Positions 18,101-39,759 of a stretch of 40,376 bases of DNA are shown here, piece by piece (position 1 is the stretch's first letter; each line of letters opens with the position of its first letter). The translations under genes were made by a program, and so were the position numbers. Under the pieces are notes generated by a model that was given only the letters and a program-made list of their open reading frames with translations, was not told where the DNA came from and did no database searches. Origin of the DNA: a virus; the IMG/VR virus record IMGVR_UViG_3300036791_000665, positions 1 through 40,376 of that record. One strand, 5' to 3'.

Positions 18101-18310
18101 ATGCCCGCATTTCTTGAAAGCAAACTACGTTCCGAGTACGGCAACAACCCGCACGCGATCTATGGCACGTTGAATAAATTGGGCGCGCTGCGCGGTAACC
18201 GCGAAACCGCGAAAGGCCGCGCGATGCAGGCGAAGCACGTGCGCGATATGGCGGCGCGGCGGGCTAAGAAGCCCGGCGGGCGGCTGGCGCTGGTTATGGG
18301 GGAAGCATGA
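18101..18310 (+). CDS. Conserved small phage head-operon protein
   Basis: 69 aa. It runs MPAFLESKLRSEYGNNPHAIYGTLNKLG, then LRGNRETAKGRAMQAKHVRD and a basic tail. The YGTLNK(L/I)G.(L/M).GN.ETxKG motif is very common as a small protein next to terminase, portal or capsid genes of tailed phages; its function is not established. ATG 18101 is the natural start and leaves 5 bases after the terminase stop. Couples to the methyltransferase by ATGA. Confidence 0.8.
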   Translation: MPAFLESKLRSEYGNNPHAIYGTLNKLGALRGNRETAKGRAMQAKHVRDMAARRAKKPGGRLALVMGEA

Positions 18311-18981
18311 GGGCGCTCGATCTATTTTGCTGCGCTGGCGGTGCGACAAAGGGCTTGCAGCGCGCCGGGTTCCATGTGACCGGCGTAGACATCAAGCCGC
18401 AGTCGCGCTATTGCGGCGACGCTTTTGTACGGGGTGATGCGCTGCGCCTGCCTTTCGACTTGCGCGAGTTTGATTTTGTTTGGGCGTCGCCGCCGTGTCA
18501 AGCCTTCACGCGGCTGCGTAATCTCCAGCGCACCCGGCATGGACTGAAGAGATATCCAGACATAATCCACGAGGTGAGGCAGATGCTGGCCGCTGCCAAT
18601 GTGCCGTATGTCATCGAGAATCTCGAAGGCGCTCCCTTGGCTGGCGACTACCTCATCATGCTGTGCGGGACCATGTTCGGACTGCAAACGCCGAATGGAT
18701 CTGCTGAATTGCGCCGCCATCGGCTGTTTGAAACCAGTTTCTCGATTCCGCTGAGGCCTCGATGCCAACATGTAAACCGCGCAATCTCAATCACCGGACA
18801 TACTCCGCAAACAAATGTCGTAACAAACCGTATCCGCAGGACATTCCCGATTGGCGACGCAAAGGTCGCTATGGGGATTGACTGGATGCCCATGAAATAT
18901 CTGTCTCAGGCAATTCCACCGGCCTATTCAGAATTCATCGGACGGCAGGCAATGGACTACCTGCAAAAGGCAGCGGCATGA
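18307..18981 (+). CDS. dcm-like: C5 cytosine DNA methyltransferase
   Basis: 224 aa. Motif I is LDLFCCAGGATKG (4-16). The catalytic ASPPCQAF has Cys64. Motif VI is VIENLEGA (103-109). IPPAYSEFIG near the C-terminus is motif X-like. These are the Dcm-type SAM-dependent enzymes that put a methyl on cytosine C5. At 224 aa it is short, with a small target-recognition segment (120-190). No restriction nuclease is nearby, so it is an orphan, most likely shielding phage DNA from host enzymes. Its codon use is less GC-extreme than that of the flanking terminase and portal, suggesting a later insertion. Confidence 0.9.
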   Translation: MRALDLFCCAGGATKGLQRAGFHVTGVDIKPQSRYCGDAFVRGDALRLPFDLREFDFVWASPPCQAFTRLRNLQRTRHGLKRYPDIIHEVRQMLAAANVPYVIENLEGAPLAGDYLIMLCGTMFGLQTPNGSAELRRHRLFETSFSIPLRPRCQHVNRAISITGHTPQTNVVTNRIRRTFPIGDAKVAMGIDWMPMKYLSQAIPPAYSEFIGRQAMDYLQKAAA

Positions 18982-33710: not shown

Positions 33711-35006
33711 ATGCCGAGTCCTCTCGACGCACTGCCGCCGCCGACCAGCGCAGCATCGGGCGCAAACCCGCTCGATGCGCTGCCGCCGCCCACCGCGCCC
33801 TCAAAGCCGGGTTTCTTCCAAACCCTCGCGGACGACATATCCTCACTTCCGCATTTCGCTAAAATCCTTTCGACCGCGATTAACCCGGCGGCAAGCAATG
33901 CAGACCGCGCGGCAGCGTGGACCGAATTGTCCGCGCCGAGCCTGCAAAATATGGGCGAGGCGATGGGCTATGCAAAATCCGGCCAGCCTGTGGCGGCGGG
34001 GATTCGCGCCGCTGAGTCAGTTCCGATTGCCGGGCCGATGGCGCGCGCAATCTCACACAGCATCGACACGGGCGATTATGGAGCCGCTGCCGCGCGCGGC
34101 CTGGAAGTGGCACTGCCTCACATAATAGAGCCCGTCGCGGGGGTCTTGGGCAAACCTGCCGCTGCCGTGAGCGAAGCCGCGCGCGCACCGTTTAAGGTCG
34201 ATCCCGAAGCAGGGATTAACACAGCGCTGAAATTTAAACCCACCGCCGATATCCGGAACCTGCGCCAGGCGGTTGCGGACGTGAAAGCGGCCGAAACCGT
34301 GCCAATTACCGGCAACGAATCGCTGCTCAACACCATACCGGCGGCGAAAGCGGCCAACCGTACAGCGTTCGAGGCGTACATCAAAAACGCGGGCAACTCC
34401 ACGGTTTCAGGTTCGCCCGTTGTAGCAGCGACGGCGGCGAGCATCCCCGATACGATGTGGATTGAAAGTCCGGAACTGGCGCAGAAAGTCCTCGACAGCG
34501 TAAAAGGCTATGCGCGCGATTTCACCGCGCCGGAGCTGGCGAATGTTCTTGAACAGAAAAACGGCGAACTCGCGAGTTTTTACAACCGCGCGCCAGGAGC
34601 GCAGGCGGCAGCCGTCCAGAGCGGTGCGCCGGAAGCCGTAGTCAAAGCGCAGCGCGACGCGGTGGCGCGCATTCTCTACGACTTTATCGACCCTGAAAAT
34701 AAAGGCGCAGGACCGGCTGCCATTCAAAGGCGCTATGGCGCGATTCAGGAACTCGAAGAAGCCGCGCAGGCGCGCGCGAACGCGATTGCGCGCGAAAAGG
34801 CGGTTAGCACGGCGGCGTCGGGCGTGAAGCTCGCGCAGGCAGCGGGCAAGCTTATAAAGCTTGACCCTGAAGCCGCCGTGCGGACCTGGCAGGGTTCGGA
34901 CTCGCTGATTCGCCGCGCGTTTGCGAACATCGACCCGGACGGCGTGCACCCGACGCCAGCAGCCGTGTCAGTTGATCCAAGCCCAGTGAATGAAACGCAC
35001 GAGTAG
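33711..35006 (+). CDS. Large ejection-module protein
   Basis: 431 aa. It opens with two copies of PLDALPPPT, then FFQTLADDISSLPHFAKILSTAINPAASNADRAAAW and a run of hydrophobic/Gly-Ala-rich helices (AGIRAAESVPIAGPMARAISHSIDTGDYGAAAARGLEVALPHI) that could insert into membranes. The rest is helical, with KVDPEAGINTALKFKP in the middle. It is the last of three tandem ejection genes, 2 bases after the previous one. Its last 39 bases overlap the antisense membrane microprotein. Confidence 0.7.
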   Translation: MPSPLDALPPPTSAASGANPLDALPPPTAPSKPGFFQTLADDISSLPHFAKILSTAINPAASNADRAAAWTELSAPSLQNMGEAMGYAKSGQPVAAGIRAAESVPIAGPMARAISHSIDTGDYGAAAARGLEVALPHIIEPVAGVLGKPAAAVSEAARAPFKVDPEAGINTALKFKPTADIRNLRQAVADVKAAETVPITGNESLLNTIPAAKAANRTAFEAYIKNAGNSTVSGSPVVAATAASIPDTMWIESPELAQKVLDSVKGYARDFTAPELANVLEQKNGELASFYNRAPGAQAAAVQSGAPEAVVKAQRDAVARILYDFIDPENKGAGPAAIQRRYGAIQELEEAAQARANAIAREKAVSTAASGVKLAQAAGKLIKLDPEAAVRTWQGSDSLIRRAFANIDPDGVHPTPAAVSVDPSPVNETHE

Positions 35007-35108
35007 CCATATGCAGCCAAGGAAAAGCGCGAGAAAAAAGATCACGCCTGCCGTGCCCGCTTTCCATCCAATCTCGCTGGGGTGTCGCGCCACGGGGGTT
35101 CGACGCAT
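34968..35108 (-). CDS. Antisense membrane microprotein
   Basis: 46 aa. A basic, polar start (MRRTPVARHPSEIGWKAG) is followed by one strong helix, GVIFFLALFLGCIWLLV, and a short RFIHWAWIN end rich in aromatics. Charge and helix length are ideal for a single-pass inner-membrane peptide. It reads against the ejection gene and overlaps its last 39 bases. AGGT precedes the ATG weakly. It may be transcribed from the GIY-YIG side. A lysis or exclusion role is possible; unproven. Confidence 0.5.
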   Translation of the reverse strand: MRRTPVARHPSEIGWKAGTAGVIFFLALFLGCIWLLVRFIHWAWIN

Positions 35109-35165
35109 TATGCTACCTGCCGATTTAATGATTTTAAAGTCATGACCGTGATGATGAGCACGCGA

Positions 35166-36188
35166 TTAAGCAGCGCGGCGGGCGCGTTTGGTTTCCCAGG
35201 ACTTTTTGCCTGCGGCGCTGCGCTGTTCGGTGGTCATTGCAGCGATGCGCTTTCTTTCGGAGGCGCTGCGCTCTTCCGGTGTCCTGCTGGTCTGCCCCTT
35301 CCGTGCAATCTCGCTGCGCTGTTCCGGCGTTGTGTTCGCCCTGATAGTGGCCAGGCGCTTCTGCGCAGCCGCGCTGCGCTGTTCGGGAGTCATGCTGAGA
35401 TGCCCCTTTCGGGATGCCGCGCTGCGCTGCTCGGGCGTCATTGCAGCGATGCGCTTTCTTGCGATTGCGCTGCGTTCTTCGGGCGTTTTCGCGGCGACAG
35501 CGCGGCCGCCCGCGCTGCGCTGCTCGGACGTCATGTTGGCGCAACGTTTCAGCGCGATGGCGCTGCGCTCATCCGGTGTCCTGCTGGCCTGCCCCTTCCG
35601 TGCAGCCGCGCTGAGCTGCTCGGGCGTCATGGTAGCCAAGCGCTTCTGCGCAGACGCGACGCGCTCATCGGGCGTCATTGCGGCATTACCATTCCATATC
35701 TTTCTCATCATTTCACTGCGCTGCTCGGGCGTCATGCTCGCTATACGCTTTCGGCTTGCAGCGCTGAGCTGCTCGGGCGTCATGGCCGCTTGAATCTTCC
35801 GCCCGTGAGCCTTGCGCTCCTCAGGCGTAGTGGCCGCCCAGCGCTTCCGGCTAATCGCGCTGCGTTCCTCAGGCGTAACCCATCCGCCGCTAATACCCTC
35901 ACCGCTTTCGGTGCTGTTAGTAAGATTCGCCCCTTGCGCTTTATAAAATGCAATCCATCGGCGCTCGGCAGCCTGCCAGTCGTCCATGCCGGTTTCGATG
36001 GCTTCTATTATCGGCTTCAGACCAATACAAATCAGCCACCGAATCCACCGTTGCTTGTGGCTTTTCGGCGCAGTCGCTCTGCATTCAGCCATATGCTCCC
36101 TGAGCCGTTTTTCCAGATTCTTCGAAGTGAATCCGACATATCTGACCTGTTGGGTGCGAGGGCACTTGAGCATATAAATGGTCTTCAT
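35166..36188 (-). CDS. GIY-YIG endonuclease with 14-unit repeat array
   Basis: 340 aa from ATG 36188; a TTG at 36218 would add 10. The nuclease domain is residues 1-95: TIYMLKC and VRYVGFT (GIY and YIG strands), Arg in KRLREH, Glu in ERRWIAFY and the LTN end. From residue 105 to 334 there are 14 tandem copies of a 16-residue unit, TPEERSAIARKRIAAM-like; copies 4, 8 and 11 differ in length. Short basic helical units of the NUMOD3 kind bind DNA in homing endonucleases, but one or a few is usual. Antisense to the virion operon, between ejection and fibre genes. Confidence 0.85.
   Translation of the reverse strand: MKTIYMLKCPRTQQVRYVGFTSKNLEKRLREHMAECRATAPKSHKQRWIRWLICIGLKPIIEAIETGMDDWQAAERRWIAFYKAQGANLTNSTESGEGISGGWVTPEERSAISRKRWAATTPEERKAHGRKIQAAMTPEQLSAASRKRIASMTPEQRSEMMRKIWNGNAAMTPDERVASAQKRLATMTPEQLSAAARKGQASRTPDERSAIALKRCANMTSEQRSAGGRAVAAKTPEERSAIARKRIAAMTPEQRSAASRKGHLSMTPEQRSAAAQKRLATIRANTTPEQRSEIARKGQTSRTPEERSASERKRIAAMTTEQRSAAGKKSWETKRARRAA
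35187..35876 (-). repeat. 48-bp period coding repeat array (14 units)
   Basis: The DNA repeats in a 48-base period with drift, coding for the 16-residue units above. Each unit contains ACGCCCGA(G/A)-GAGCGCAGCGC-type sequence. It is coding, in one open frame, and has no spacers. Confidence 0.9.
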
Positions 36189-36191
36189 CCA

Positions 36192-36207
36192 GTTACAAGT
36201 TTGTAAC
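36192..36207. promoter_or_regulatory. Inverted repeat GTTACAA-GT-TTGTAAC
   Basis: Perfect 7-bp arms with a 2-base centre, just upstream of ATG 36188 of the GIY-YIG gene and 66 bases before the fibre gene. Operator or nuclease target are both possible. Confidence 0.45.
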
Positions 36208-36273
36208 GAAACGACCAATGTTTACTAGGGCCAGAGCACAATCGGGAGTACCGGTATCCAAGGAAGGAATTAT

Positions 36274-39200
36274 ATGAAACTCTTAGTGTTGGTTAGCCTG
36301 ATTGCACCGGTTACTCTCTTTGGGCAGGCGGCTGCGATTTCACCGATGCCGATGCTCCAATTTTTTGACAATAACGGAAAACCGGCGGCAGGTTTCTGTC
36401 TCCAAACTTTCGCCTCCGGAAGCACAACGCCACAAAGCGCGTATCTCGATTCCGGAGGTACGCCAGCTACGAATCCAATAATTTTGGACTCGGCTGGGAG
36501 AGCCTCAGTCTGGCTCGATTCTAGAAGTTACAAATTTGTCCTTCGCGCGAAAACTACCGGCTGTGCAGGAGGAGGAGGTGCGGTTCTCTGGTCCGTCGAT
36601 AACGTCACGAATGCGGGTTTTGCCCTCGCTTCCGCGCTGACATCCGGCCGCCTCGCCATCGGGCTGACCGGAGCGCCCGCAACGGGCACGGGCGGCGGCA
36701 TCGGCACCGGCAACGCGCTCTTATCGGCGACGCTTGACGGCTTGTACGTCTCGGTCAACGGCGCGCCACCAGTCGCGCTCAGCGGAAGCGGCGGCGGCGG
36801 CGGCACCGGCGGGGCCGCGGGCGGCCCGACAACGTCGGTTCAGTACAACAAGGCTGGCGCGCTCGCAGGCACGGCCAATTTTGTTTATAACGATGGGGGC
36901 TCGGGCGTCGGCAGTATCCTAACCATTTGCGACCCACCCACGGCCGCATGTAACGCGAATTCCGGTTTCGTCGGGCCGGCGTTTACCAGCACGGCCACCG
37001 GCACTATAGCTAACGGCACTTCCGCGCCAGCCTTTACGACGCAAAACGGCAACGCTGAAATTCTGGCGAATGGCACCGCAGGTTTTCAGACGATGGGCCT
37101 CGGGCTGCAGACCGCGCCTGCTACGGGATTAAGCGGCGGGACGCTGATGGGCGACGCGAGGTTATCCGCGACAACTGCGGGGCTTTATCTCTCACTGAAT
37201 GGCGCGCCACCGGTTCCAATTGGAACGGGCGGCGCTCCGGGCGCACCGGCGACGAGCATACAGTTCAACAATAATGGTTCATTTGGCGGCTCGAACAACC
37301 TGGTATGGGACAACGTGAAGGCGATTCTCACACTTAGAAAAGTAGGTATAGATTCGGCCATGACTGCGCCTATTTTTGACGGCGATGTCACCTCGGGCGG
37401 GAATACGTTTCAAAATTCAGACGGCACGTTTCACGTTGACTACCAAGGCAATGGCGGCTTTCGCAGCGCAGGCCTCGGCTTGTTCGCCAATCCCGTCACC
37501 GGCAACGGCGGCGGCGTGAACGTGGGCGAGGCGAGGCTATCAGCAACGACGGGCGGCCTGTATGTGTCGATCAACGGCGCTGCGCCCGCGCTGCTTTCAA
37601 CGGGCGGCGCGCCCGGCGCACCCACTGCGAGCGTGCAGTACAACAAGTCGGGCGCGTTTACGGGCTCGGCTAACCTGGTATTTAACGATGCGGGCAGCAT
37701 CATGACGGTTTGCCCGGCTGCCAACGCGGCGTGTAATGCGAATTCCGGTTTCGTCGCAACGTCATTCACCAGCACGGCCACGGGCACAGGGTCAGCGAAC
37801 CCGGCTTTCACTACGCAGAACGGCAACGCCCATATATGGGCCGATGGCACGGCAGGTTTTCAAAGCGCTGGCGTCGGTCTTCTGGCGTCGCCTGTAACCG
37901 GCGCGGCGGGCGGCGTCAACGTGGGCGAGGCGCGATTGAGCGCAACAACGGGCGGCCTGTATGTCTCAATCAACGGCGCAACACCCGCGCTGCTTTCGAC
38001 GGGCGGCGCGCCCGGCGCACCCGCTAATTCGGTTCAGTACAACAAATCGGGCGCTTTTGCGGGCACGTCCAACCTGGTATTTAACGATGCGGGCAGCATT
38101 ATGACCATTTGCCCCGCATCGAACGTGGCATGTGGCGCGAATTCCGGTTTCGTCGCGACGTCATTCACCAGCACGGCGACCGGCACAGGGTCGGCCTTTA
38201 CAACACAGACCGGCAATGCTGAAATTTTCGGCAACGGCGCGGCGGGTTTTCAAAATGTTGGCATAGGGCTCCTGGCATCGCCCGTGACCGGCGCGGGCGG
38301 CGGTACGGGCGCGGGGAACGCCATGTTGTCAGCCACTACCACCGGGCTCTTTCTCAGTTTGAACGGGGGCGCCCCTGTCGCGATAGGCAGCGGCGTCAGT
38401 TCGCTTACATCCGCAGGCAACGGGCTGACGTTTAACGTCTCGACCGGCCCGGTAACCGCAACACTCGCGCAGAATATCGCGGCCAACGGCGCGCCGACTT
38501 TCGCCAGCCTCGCGCTTACTAACGGAATCACGGCAGGCGGCGGCGCTTACGGGCTCACCGGCGCGGGCGCGCTCACGGTCGCGAGTTGCACCGGCTGCGC
38601 GGGCGCACCTGGCGGGCCGTCCACGTCGATACAGTTCAATAATGGCGGCGTTTTCGGAGGCTCGGCCAACCTGATTTGGGATAACGGCAACGCGATTCTG
38701 ACGATTGGAAAGACTAACGGTAATTCATCGGTTGATGCTCCGCTTTTCGCCAGTTATAATACCGGGCTGAATCCCGCATTTATTGCAAATAACGGGGCCG
38801 CTCAGATTAACGCGACCGGAAACGCTTTCTTCCAGAGCATTTGTACCAACGGGAACCCCGCAACGGAGGCGTGTACTTATAAACTGACGAGCGCGGGCGC
38901 GCTTACTATCGCCTCGGCGATCGCTTCGGGCACGTTTACCTCGACCGCGACGGGAGGCACCCCGGCCTTCGCATCAAACGGCGTTAACATCACAGGCGCG
39001 GGCGACGTGGTCTTTCGCGGCGGCCTCCTCATAGGGCCAACAGAGGCATACGGCCTTACCGCTGGCGGCGCGCTTACCGTGTCCAGTTGCACCGGTTGCA
39101 GCGCTGGCGGCAGCGGCGTTACCCAAATCGCTTCAACCGGCAACGGGTTGGCGTTCAATCAGGCGACCGGATCGGTAACCGCGTCGCTCGCGCAGAATAT

Positions 39201-39759
39201 CGCGACCAATGCCGATGTGCACTTCAACACGGTTACTACGGTTTCATTCGTTTCATCCGGCTGCACGGGTACGGCGATGTGCATGGGAGACAACAGCGGC
39301 AACTGGTCGGTGAATGGGGCCGGATCGTTTCTCGGCCAGTCAATCTCGGTCGGTTCGCACAGCACCACCGCGACGCAGGGGCAGGGTGCCACTATTAGCA
39401 ATGCCGGAACGAATTACGCCGCGTCGTTTTACGATACGGGCGGTAACTGCAACGTGGGCACGGTCTATACGGGCGGCATCGGCTGCACGTCGGACGCGCG
39501 GCTGAAAAAGAACGTGCGCAACCTGCCCGACGCGCTCGAGAGCGTCAACAAACTGCGCCCGGTTACGTTTGACTGGTCGAAGAACGACGCGCACGGCGTG
39601 GGATTCATCGCGCAGGAAATCCAGAACGTTTACCCCGGCCTCGTAACCCGCGGCGACAACGGCTATCTTGTGTTCAGTGAAATGGGCCTCGTGCCCGAGC
39701 TGGTGAAATCAATCCAGCAACTTACCGCGCGCGTGGCTGCGCTCGAGGCCAAACGATGA
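36274..39759 (+). CDS. Long tail fibre with signal-like start and S74 chaperone
   Basis: 1161 aa with AAGGAAGG before the ATG. The start MKLLVLVSLIAPVTLFGQAAA reads as a Sec signal peptide. Then comes the fibre-head module PMLQFFDNNGKPAAGFCLQTFASGSTTPQSAYLDSGG...NPIILDSAGRASVWL...YKFVL, common at fibre N-termini. The shaft has repeats of about 133 residues (GGAPGAP.SVQYNKSGAF.G..NLVFNDAGSIMT... to GGLYVSINGA.PALL). The last 95 residues, from SDARLKKNVRNLPDALESVN to the terminal coiled coil, are a Peptidase_S74 intramolecular chaperone with the Ser/Lys dyad for self-release. Confidence 0.9.
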   Translation: MKLLVLVSLIAPVTLFGQAAAISPMPMLQFFDNNGKPAAGFCLQTFASGSTTPQSAYLDSGGTPATNPIILDSAGRASVWLDSRSYKFVLRAKTTGCAGGGGAVLWSVDNVTNAGFALASALTSGRLAIGLTGAPATGTGGGIGTGNALLSATLDGLYVSVNGAPPVALSGSGGGGGTGGAAGGPTTSVQYNKAGALAGTANFVYNDGGSGVGSILTICDPPTAACNANSGFVGPAFTSTATGTIANGTSAPAFTTQNGNAEILANGTAGFQTMGLGLQTAPATGLSGGTLMGDARLSATTAGLYLSLNGAPPVPIGTGGAPGAPATSIQFNNNGSFGGSNNLVWDNVKAILTLRKVGIDSAMTAPIFDGDVTSGGNTFQNSDGTFHVDYQGNGGFRSAGLGLFANPVTGNGGGVNVGEARLSATTGGLYVSINGAAPALLSTGGAPGAPTASVQYNKSGAFTGSANLVFNDAGSIMTVCPAANAACNANSGFVATSFTSTATGTGSANPAFTTQNGNAHIWADGTAGFQSAGVGLLASPVTGAAGGVNVGEARLSATTGGLYVSINGATPALLSTGGAPGAPANSVQYNKSGAFAGTSNLVFNDAGSIMTICPASNVACGANSGFVATSFTSTATGTGSAFTTQTGNAEIFGNGAAGFQNVGIGLLASPVTGAGGGTGAGNAMLSATTTGLFLSLNGGAPVAIGSGVSSLTSAGNGLTFNVSTGPVTATLAQNIAANGAPTFASLALTNGITAGGGAYGLTGAGALTVASCTGCAGAPGGPSTSIQFNNGGVFGGSANLIWDNGNAILTIGKTNGNSSVDAPLFASYNTGLNPAFIANNGAAQINATGNAFFQSICTNGNPATEACTYKLTSAGALTIASAIASGTFTSTATGGTPAFASNGVNITGAGDVVFRGGLLIGPTEAYGLTAGGALTVSSCTGCSAGGSGVTQIASTGNGLAFNQATGSVTASLAQNIATNADVHFNTVTTVSFVSSGCTGTAMCMGDNSGNWSVNGAGSFLGQSISVGSHSTTATQGQGATISNAGTNYAASFYDTGGNCNVGTVYTGGIGCTSDARLKKNVRNLPDALESVNKLRPVTFDWSKNDAHGVGFIAQEIQNVYPGLVTRGDNGYLVFSEMGLVPELVKSIQQLTARVAALEAKR

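Follow-up and report, generated by a model that had tools for sequence, protein, structure and literature searches.

Homing endonucleases of the GIY-YIG type bind DNA in the minor groove, and 12 of the 15 homing endonucleases of phage T4 are free-standing (PMC2988022). One T4 enzyme, I-TevI, places its nuclease first, followed by a linker and an extended DNA-binding part that comprises a zinc finger, one minor-groove helix, and an HTH (PMC2988022, PMC1564403). NUMODs tether phage nucleases to targets of up to 30 bp (PMC3943268). A further DNA-binding domain composed of tandem short basic helices is the STPR domain of silkworm FMBP-1 (PF21107), which has a pI of 11.4 (PMC4821344). Here we describe a phage gene in which an I-TevI-like catalytic domain is followed by a row of 14 similar short units.

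RESULTS

A GIY-YIG nuclease with a 14-unit array

The window, i.e., the whole stretch of DNA analyzed, is the complete IMG/VR virus record IMGVR_UViG_3300036791_000665 (40,376 bases), whose other genes include terminase, portal, scaffold, major head, head-closure, and ejection genes. On the minus strand, to which the coordinates of all parts of this gene given below also refer, a gene of 340 aa (35166 to 36188; ATG at 36188, TAA at 35166) encodes a GIY-YIG nuclease joined to a 14-unit helical array. This composition had been proposed in a first-pass annotation and was confirmed by the 340-aa open reading frame, the PF01541 match, and a profile of the repeat unit. The start codon agrees with the equivalent residue in relatives. 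The gene is intergenic, between a left neighbor at 33711 to 35006 (plus strand) and a right neighbor at 36274 to 39759 (plus strand), the latter a tail gene whose product includes an S74 chaperone domain, and it runs antisense to the late genes. Relatives of the left-neighbor gene were sought for an empty-site comparison, and none were found. An open frame of 374 aa on the plus strand (35082 to 36206) spans the whole array gene in antisense; it is probably a by-product of the array codon pattern in G+C-rich DNA and was not called a gene.

The catalytic domain (residues 1 to 92; 35913 to 36188) was delimited by PF01541, invariant columns, and a Foldseek match. Residues 2 to 85 matched PF01541 at 32.1 bits (curated cutoff, 22.6). 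Y5, Y17, G19, R28, H32, E75, and N91 were present and invariant in the close clade; these include the catalytic Tyr, Tyr, Arg, Glu, and Asn (Y5, Y17, R28, E75, and N91), and Y17, G19, E75, and N91 were also invariant among 22 wider relatives. A Foldseek search matched the I-TevI catalytic domain (1ln0; E, 0.015; probability, 1.00; TM[target], 0.71) and gave no structural match for the array. The nuclease domain appears intact and active-looking, and its frame carries no signs of decay. The window enzyme is thus like I-TevI in its catalytic fold and residues and in its order of parts (nuclease, linker, and a putative extended DNA-binding part), but it differs in having 14 like helices and no zinc finger or HTH-type modules. 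The linker (residues 93 to 104; 35877 to 35912) was modeled with a pLDDT of <50 at residues 93 to 103.

The array (residues 105 to 334; 35187 to 35876) was recognized by an iterated unit profile, the structural model, and its charge. Its 14 tandem units start at residues 105, 121, 137, 153, 172, 188, 204, 220, 235, 251, 267, 287, 303, and 319 (spacings, 16, 16, 16, 19, 16, 16, 16, 15, 16, 16, 20, 16, and 16). The unit length of 16 residues given at first therefore holds for most units, while three have 15, 19, and 20 aa; the frame first written as TPEERSA..RKR is better described, on the minus strand, as T-P-E-[EQ]-R-S-[AE]-x-x-R-K-x-x-A-x-x (short form, TPEQRSxxxRKxxAxx; TPE units below). The array has 52 K+R against 24 D+E (pI, 11.6; net charge, approximately +28) and is followed by a basic C-terminal tail, RARRAA (35169 to 35186). 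A DNA pattern spanning two neighboring units had four matches in the window, compared with none in 100 shuffles. Because the units are on average 60% identical to each other at the DNA level, the array is not a recent microsatellite-like expansion. A six-unit super-repeat that is visible by eye (units 3 to 8 resembling units 9 to 14) was rejected by a permutation test (P = 0.41). Our literature search for TPEQRSE, TPEERSA, and TPEQRRE found no paper with these motifs.

AlphaFold2, run on a 22-row alignment of the window and locus proteins, gave a mean pLDDT of 90.5 (approximately 85 to 97 in the array). The array was predicted as 14 separate helices (12 to 20 residues), one per unit, each starting directly after the T of TPE and separated by two-residue breaks; with a pTM of 0.36, the helices are locally confident and their mutual arrangement is not. 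The first-pass annotation had named a plain coiled coil as an outcome that would count against its proposal; a coiled coil (i.e., a long continuous helix with heptads) was not predicted for the array. Both long units, i.e., unit 4 (19 aa, +3; 35676 to 35732) and unit 11 (20 aa, +4; 35331 to 35390), were identified by the profile and modeled with a helix one turn longer (H154-170 and H268-285, respectively). Over all arrays, 109 of 120 spacings were exactly 16, and 8 of the 11 irregular ones were +3 or +4. In a rough test on these related sequences, the P value for this excess was 0.0002 with all shifts from -5 to +5 taken as equally likely and 0.009 over +1 to +6. Extra residues were mostly added in one-helical-turn steps. 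No significant amphipathic face of charge or variability was found along the helix (P = 0.3 to 0.8).

Relatives carrying TPE units

Given that a whole-protein search of IMG/VR had yielded few relatives, we searched IMG/VR with the DNA pattern for two adjacent units. This pattern recovered 35 loci, of which 19 (15 distinct) encode a GIY-YIG protein carrying such units; in the remaining loci, the pattern either fell in HNH-type and other proteins or matched structural genes by chance. A scan of genome contigs with the GIY-YIG profile found no relatives, and a three-unit DNA pattern applied to contigs recovered the close relative L100. The contig of L100, filed under Nevskia soli, resembles the window in its terminase (57%) and portal (34%) genes; it looks like a phage related to that of the window, with the host link given by record filing alone. 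Unit numbers within the close clade were 14 (window), 13 (L023 and L052), 17 (L035), and 7 (L041 and L100).

In a tree of 44 GIY-YIG domains, these six close array proteins were grouped (support, 95/99), and five changes of array label were needed, three of which were forced by well-supported branches. TPE arrays, with 4 to 17 units, occur on at least three, and probably five, tree-separated GIY-YIG lineages. Such chains are fairly common in phage GIY-YIG enzymes and have been without a family name so far. A hypothetical protein of Synechococcus phage S-PM2 (AAP92669.1) is like the window protein in combining a GIY-YIG-like domain with TPEQR units, but it belongs to another GIY-YIG lineage and has four units and a C-terminal cap. 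The window array (E, 2.6e-15), like other TPE arrays, is matched by the repeat stretch of phrog_12127; this match does not take in the GIY-YIG domain, and phrog_12127 has no annotated function.

TPE units were also seen on proteins of other kinds. A 315-aa protein of the archaeon GW2011_AR10 (L102, 3672 to 4616, plus strand; no Pfam match) has approximately seven TPEQR units between an N terminus that is HTH-like by eye and a further C-terminal part; the repeat reaches beyond phage nucleases. Three other phage proteins (L047, 5285 to 6040; L038, 2 to 730; L018, 139 to 1365) carry the units C-terminally, one having a CxxC-rich stretch, one being HNH-like with a NUMOD3-like motif, and one containing both DUF6551 and a phage zinc-binding domain. 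Gp294 of Synechococcus phage B23 (L091, 2566 to 3651; no Pfam match) has, by eye, a GIY-YIG-like N terminus, followed by units of approximately 26 residues (MTSEERSGAGKKGAQTNKENGTGIYG) and a KWQC..-type cap.

Genomic context of the array genes

Kin phages of the window (terminase, 57 to 59% identical; portal, 32 to 38%) carry the array gene at different sites: in the terminase-portal gap (L100), at the portal 3' end (L035 and L041), or at another position among the late genes (L050). The gene was antisense to the late genes in every kin phage compared. In the window, the terminase-portal gap that is the site of the array nuclease in L100 contains a methyltransferase-like gene (18307 to 18978, plus strand; PF08241, 28.2 bits; PF00145, 22.9 bits; both above the cutoff). 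Random repeat numbers at the same site had been listed at first as an observation that would speak against a recognition array, and they were found in part: L035 (17 units) and L041 (7 units) are from related phages and both lie at the portal 3' end. The DNA targets of these two enzymes may differ, since the portal ends have diverged.

In a cyanophage subfamily, DNA homology between L107 and L111 stops at the open reading frame, and L149, L160, and L179 have flanks in common and nearly equal arrays. No group I intron was found near the array gene, and the window had no Rfam hit. Because of the varied sites, the homology limited to the open reading frame, and the absence of a nearby group I intron, the pattern fits free-standing homing endonucleases.

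A conserved motif, C[CT]T[AT]GTAAA[CT]nnnGG, lies 27 to 41 nt 5' of the start codon in the window (36215 to 36229, minus strand) and is shared with three relatives (L035, 1494, plus strand; L041, 558, minus strand; L100, 2839, plus strand). It precedes the start of all four related genes by approximately 40 nt at their different insertion sites and, among the loci covered by that search, occurred at no other place. The motif may be an operator, part of a promoter, a hairpin, or the 5' end of a mobile unit.

Comparison with NUMOD3 and other repeats

The TPE array resembles NUMOD3, which lies C-terminal to a GIY-YIG or HNH nuclease, in its position behind the nuclease and in its short helices with an S/T cap. 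Among 80 loci of a cyanophage-type subfamily, NUMOD3 units predominate (reaching approximately 10 in L133 and L121), and TPE units (3 to 13) follow a very similar nuclease in a few loci. Members of both types, i.e., L151, L152, and L154 (NUMOD3) and L043, L024, and L046 (TPE), have a KWQC..GID C-terminal cap in common, and L004 and L106 carry TPE and NUMOD3 units in one row. This cap, of approximately 35 aa (KWQCxxTGFIxNAGxLSxYQKARGIDxSxRxRL; in L043, L024, L046, L028, L019, L006, and L151), is common to TPE or NUMOD3 arrays and to different GIY-YIG types. The initial statement that homing GIY-YIG enzymes have one to a few NUMOD units proved wrong for this group, with NUMOD3 arrays of approximately 10 units and TPE arrays of 4 to 17.

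NUMOD3-array GIY-YIG enzymes (Synechococcus phage S-SRM01, 51291 to 51992; L133, L121, and L070) are like the window enzyme in nuclease subfamilies, array position, short-helix chain, and S/T-x-E cap. The NUMOD3-type relative L070 was modeled, at lower confidence, as a chain of short helices of at least approximately 12 residues each with loops of approximately 5. NUMOD3 units have approximately 17 to 19 aa, 12-residue helices, and 5-residue G-containing loops, whereas TPE units have 16 aa, with helices of 14 residues and breaks of 2, and are not recognized by PF07460. The NUMOD3 profile (PF07460) found nothing in the window or in eight records with TPE arrays (L035, L023, L041, L052, L046, L043, L028, and L100). 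It matched records L070, L072, L004, L005, and S-SRM01, and every NUMOD3 sister tested; the match in the L019 record falls on another gene. With a hand-made NUMOD3 matrix, the in-phase register of the array gave the highest score, through the cap box alone, and helix columns 6 to 15 fitted this matrix worse than permuted columns did.

The array could be a true NUMOD3 that has diverged past the reach of the profile, as suggested by the equal place, the cap box [ST]-x-E-x-[RK] in both, the mixed arrays in L004, L106, and L042, and the short-helix chains modeled for both. Given the silent profile and the poor fit of the helix columns, we consider this ancestry a real possibility at odds somewhat short of even. 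We conclude that the TPE array equals a NUMOD3 array in role, as it fills the place of NUMOD3 in sister enzymes, and not in membership; it is a distinct, unnamed repeat family.

Other families were more distant. The STPR domain has four repeats of 23 residues, unlike the TPE array, and gave only a subthreshold score in the window (15.3 versus 27 bits; unit of 16, not 23, residues). The KGG repeat (PF10685) had no match in the window and one among 18 relatives (E, 0.016). A sequence match to HeliScrew4 (PDB 9zem; E, 2.4e-9) involved repeated TPEQ/LTPE letters at another period and was dismissed as compositional.

Variation within the units

Relative to overall pS, pN was 0.05 to 0.25 at frame positions 1, 3, 5, and 7 and 0.87 to 1.20 at positions 8, 9, 12, 13, 15, and 16, with a maximum of 1.2 anywhere; because pS approached saturation in several arrays, this is a weak test. 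Helix-capping positions had low pN/pS. The variable positions appear to be under relaxed constraint, with no nonsynonymous excess of the kind expected for diversifying readers. Variation was highest at positions 13, 16, 8, 15, and 12, and position 13 was often W, Q, N, H, R, or S. Unit number ranged from 7 to 17 within one clade. Covariation was strongest between frame positions (4-7, 6-10, and 7-10) and was weak for 12-13 (z = 2.7) and 8-12 (z = 3.8).

These near-neutral positions, the high charge, and the free variation in length would suit a sequence-independent clamp or sliding tail, in which the array serves only affinity and processivity and any site choice would lie in the GIY-YIG domain. 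However, homing requires some site preference, and the frame and helix length are stricter than a simple basic tail needs; we regard such a clamp as less likely than not.

Far less probable is a TALE-like modular code in which each unit reads a short DNA stretch via residues 12, 13, 16, and 8. Its appeal lies in the constant frame, the concentration of variation at a few positions, the residues favored at position 13, and the weak covariation at 12-13 and 8-12. The earlier proposal that variable residues read successive DNA positions has against it the synonymous-like rate at these positions (pN/pS, approximately 0.9 to 1.2), the lack of a significant helix face, the stronger covariation within the frame, and the variable length. 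A DNA code is not supported, its positive reasons having been removed, and these results leave room for a base preference as such. We would be surprised if the units proved to be modular DNA-recognition helices with residues 12, 13, and 16 setting local base preference; if they were, the order and number of TPE units would specify a target tens of base pairs long. The least probable reading, that the array is a protein-protein or oligomerization module and not DNA-binding, draws on tandem helices able to pack and a pTM that allows packing, and is opposed by the highly basic array, a consensus without a hydrophobic core, and the swap with NUMOD3.

DISCUSSION

We interpret the window gene as a free-standing phage homing endonuclease with the array as an extended DNA-binding tail, and we assign this reading a probability of approximately 0.78. 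The array very likely binds DNA because it takes the place of NUMOD3 in sister enzymes; the initial description of the repeats as DNA-binding-like is upheld by a long basic array in that place. A 14-unit tail would anchor the nuclease to a long target, with contacts mainly to phosphate and the groove made by successive short basic helices that all bear a TPE cap. Cleavage by the window enzyme would allow its gene to home into phages without it through double-strand-break repair, and units may be gained and lost by tandem duplication.

Through a modular swap, an unnamed repeat family, with up to 17 units, stands in for NUMOD3 in phage homing endonucleases. The same family is present in HNH-type proteins and in an archaeal HTH-like protein. 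The role of array length and makeup has so far been hard to test in extended homing endonucleases. One nuclease with either type of array, in versions of 4 to 17 units, offers natural pairs for testing whether the array affects specificity, affinity, or reach.
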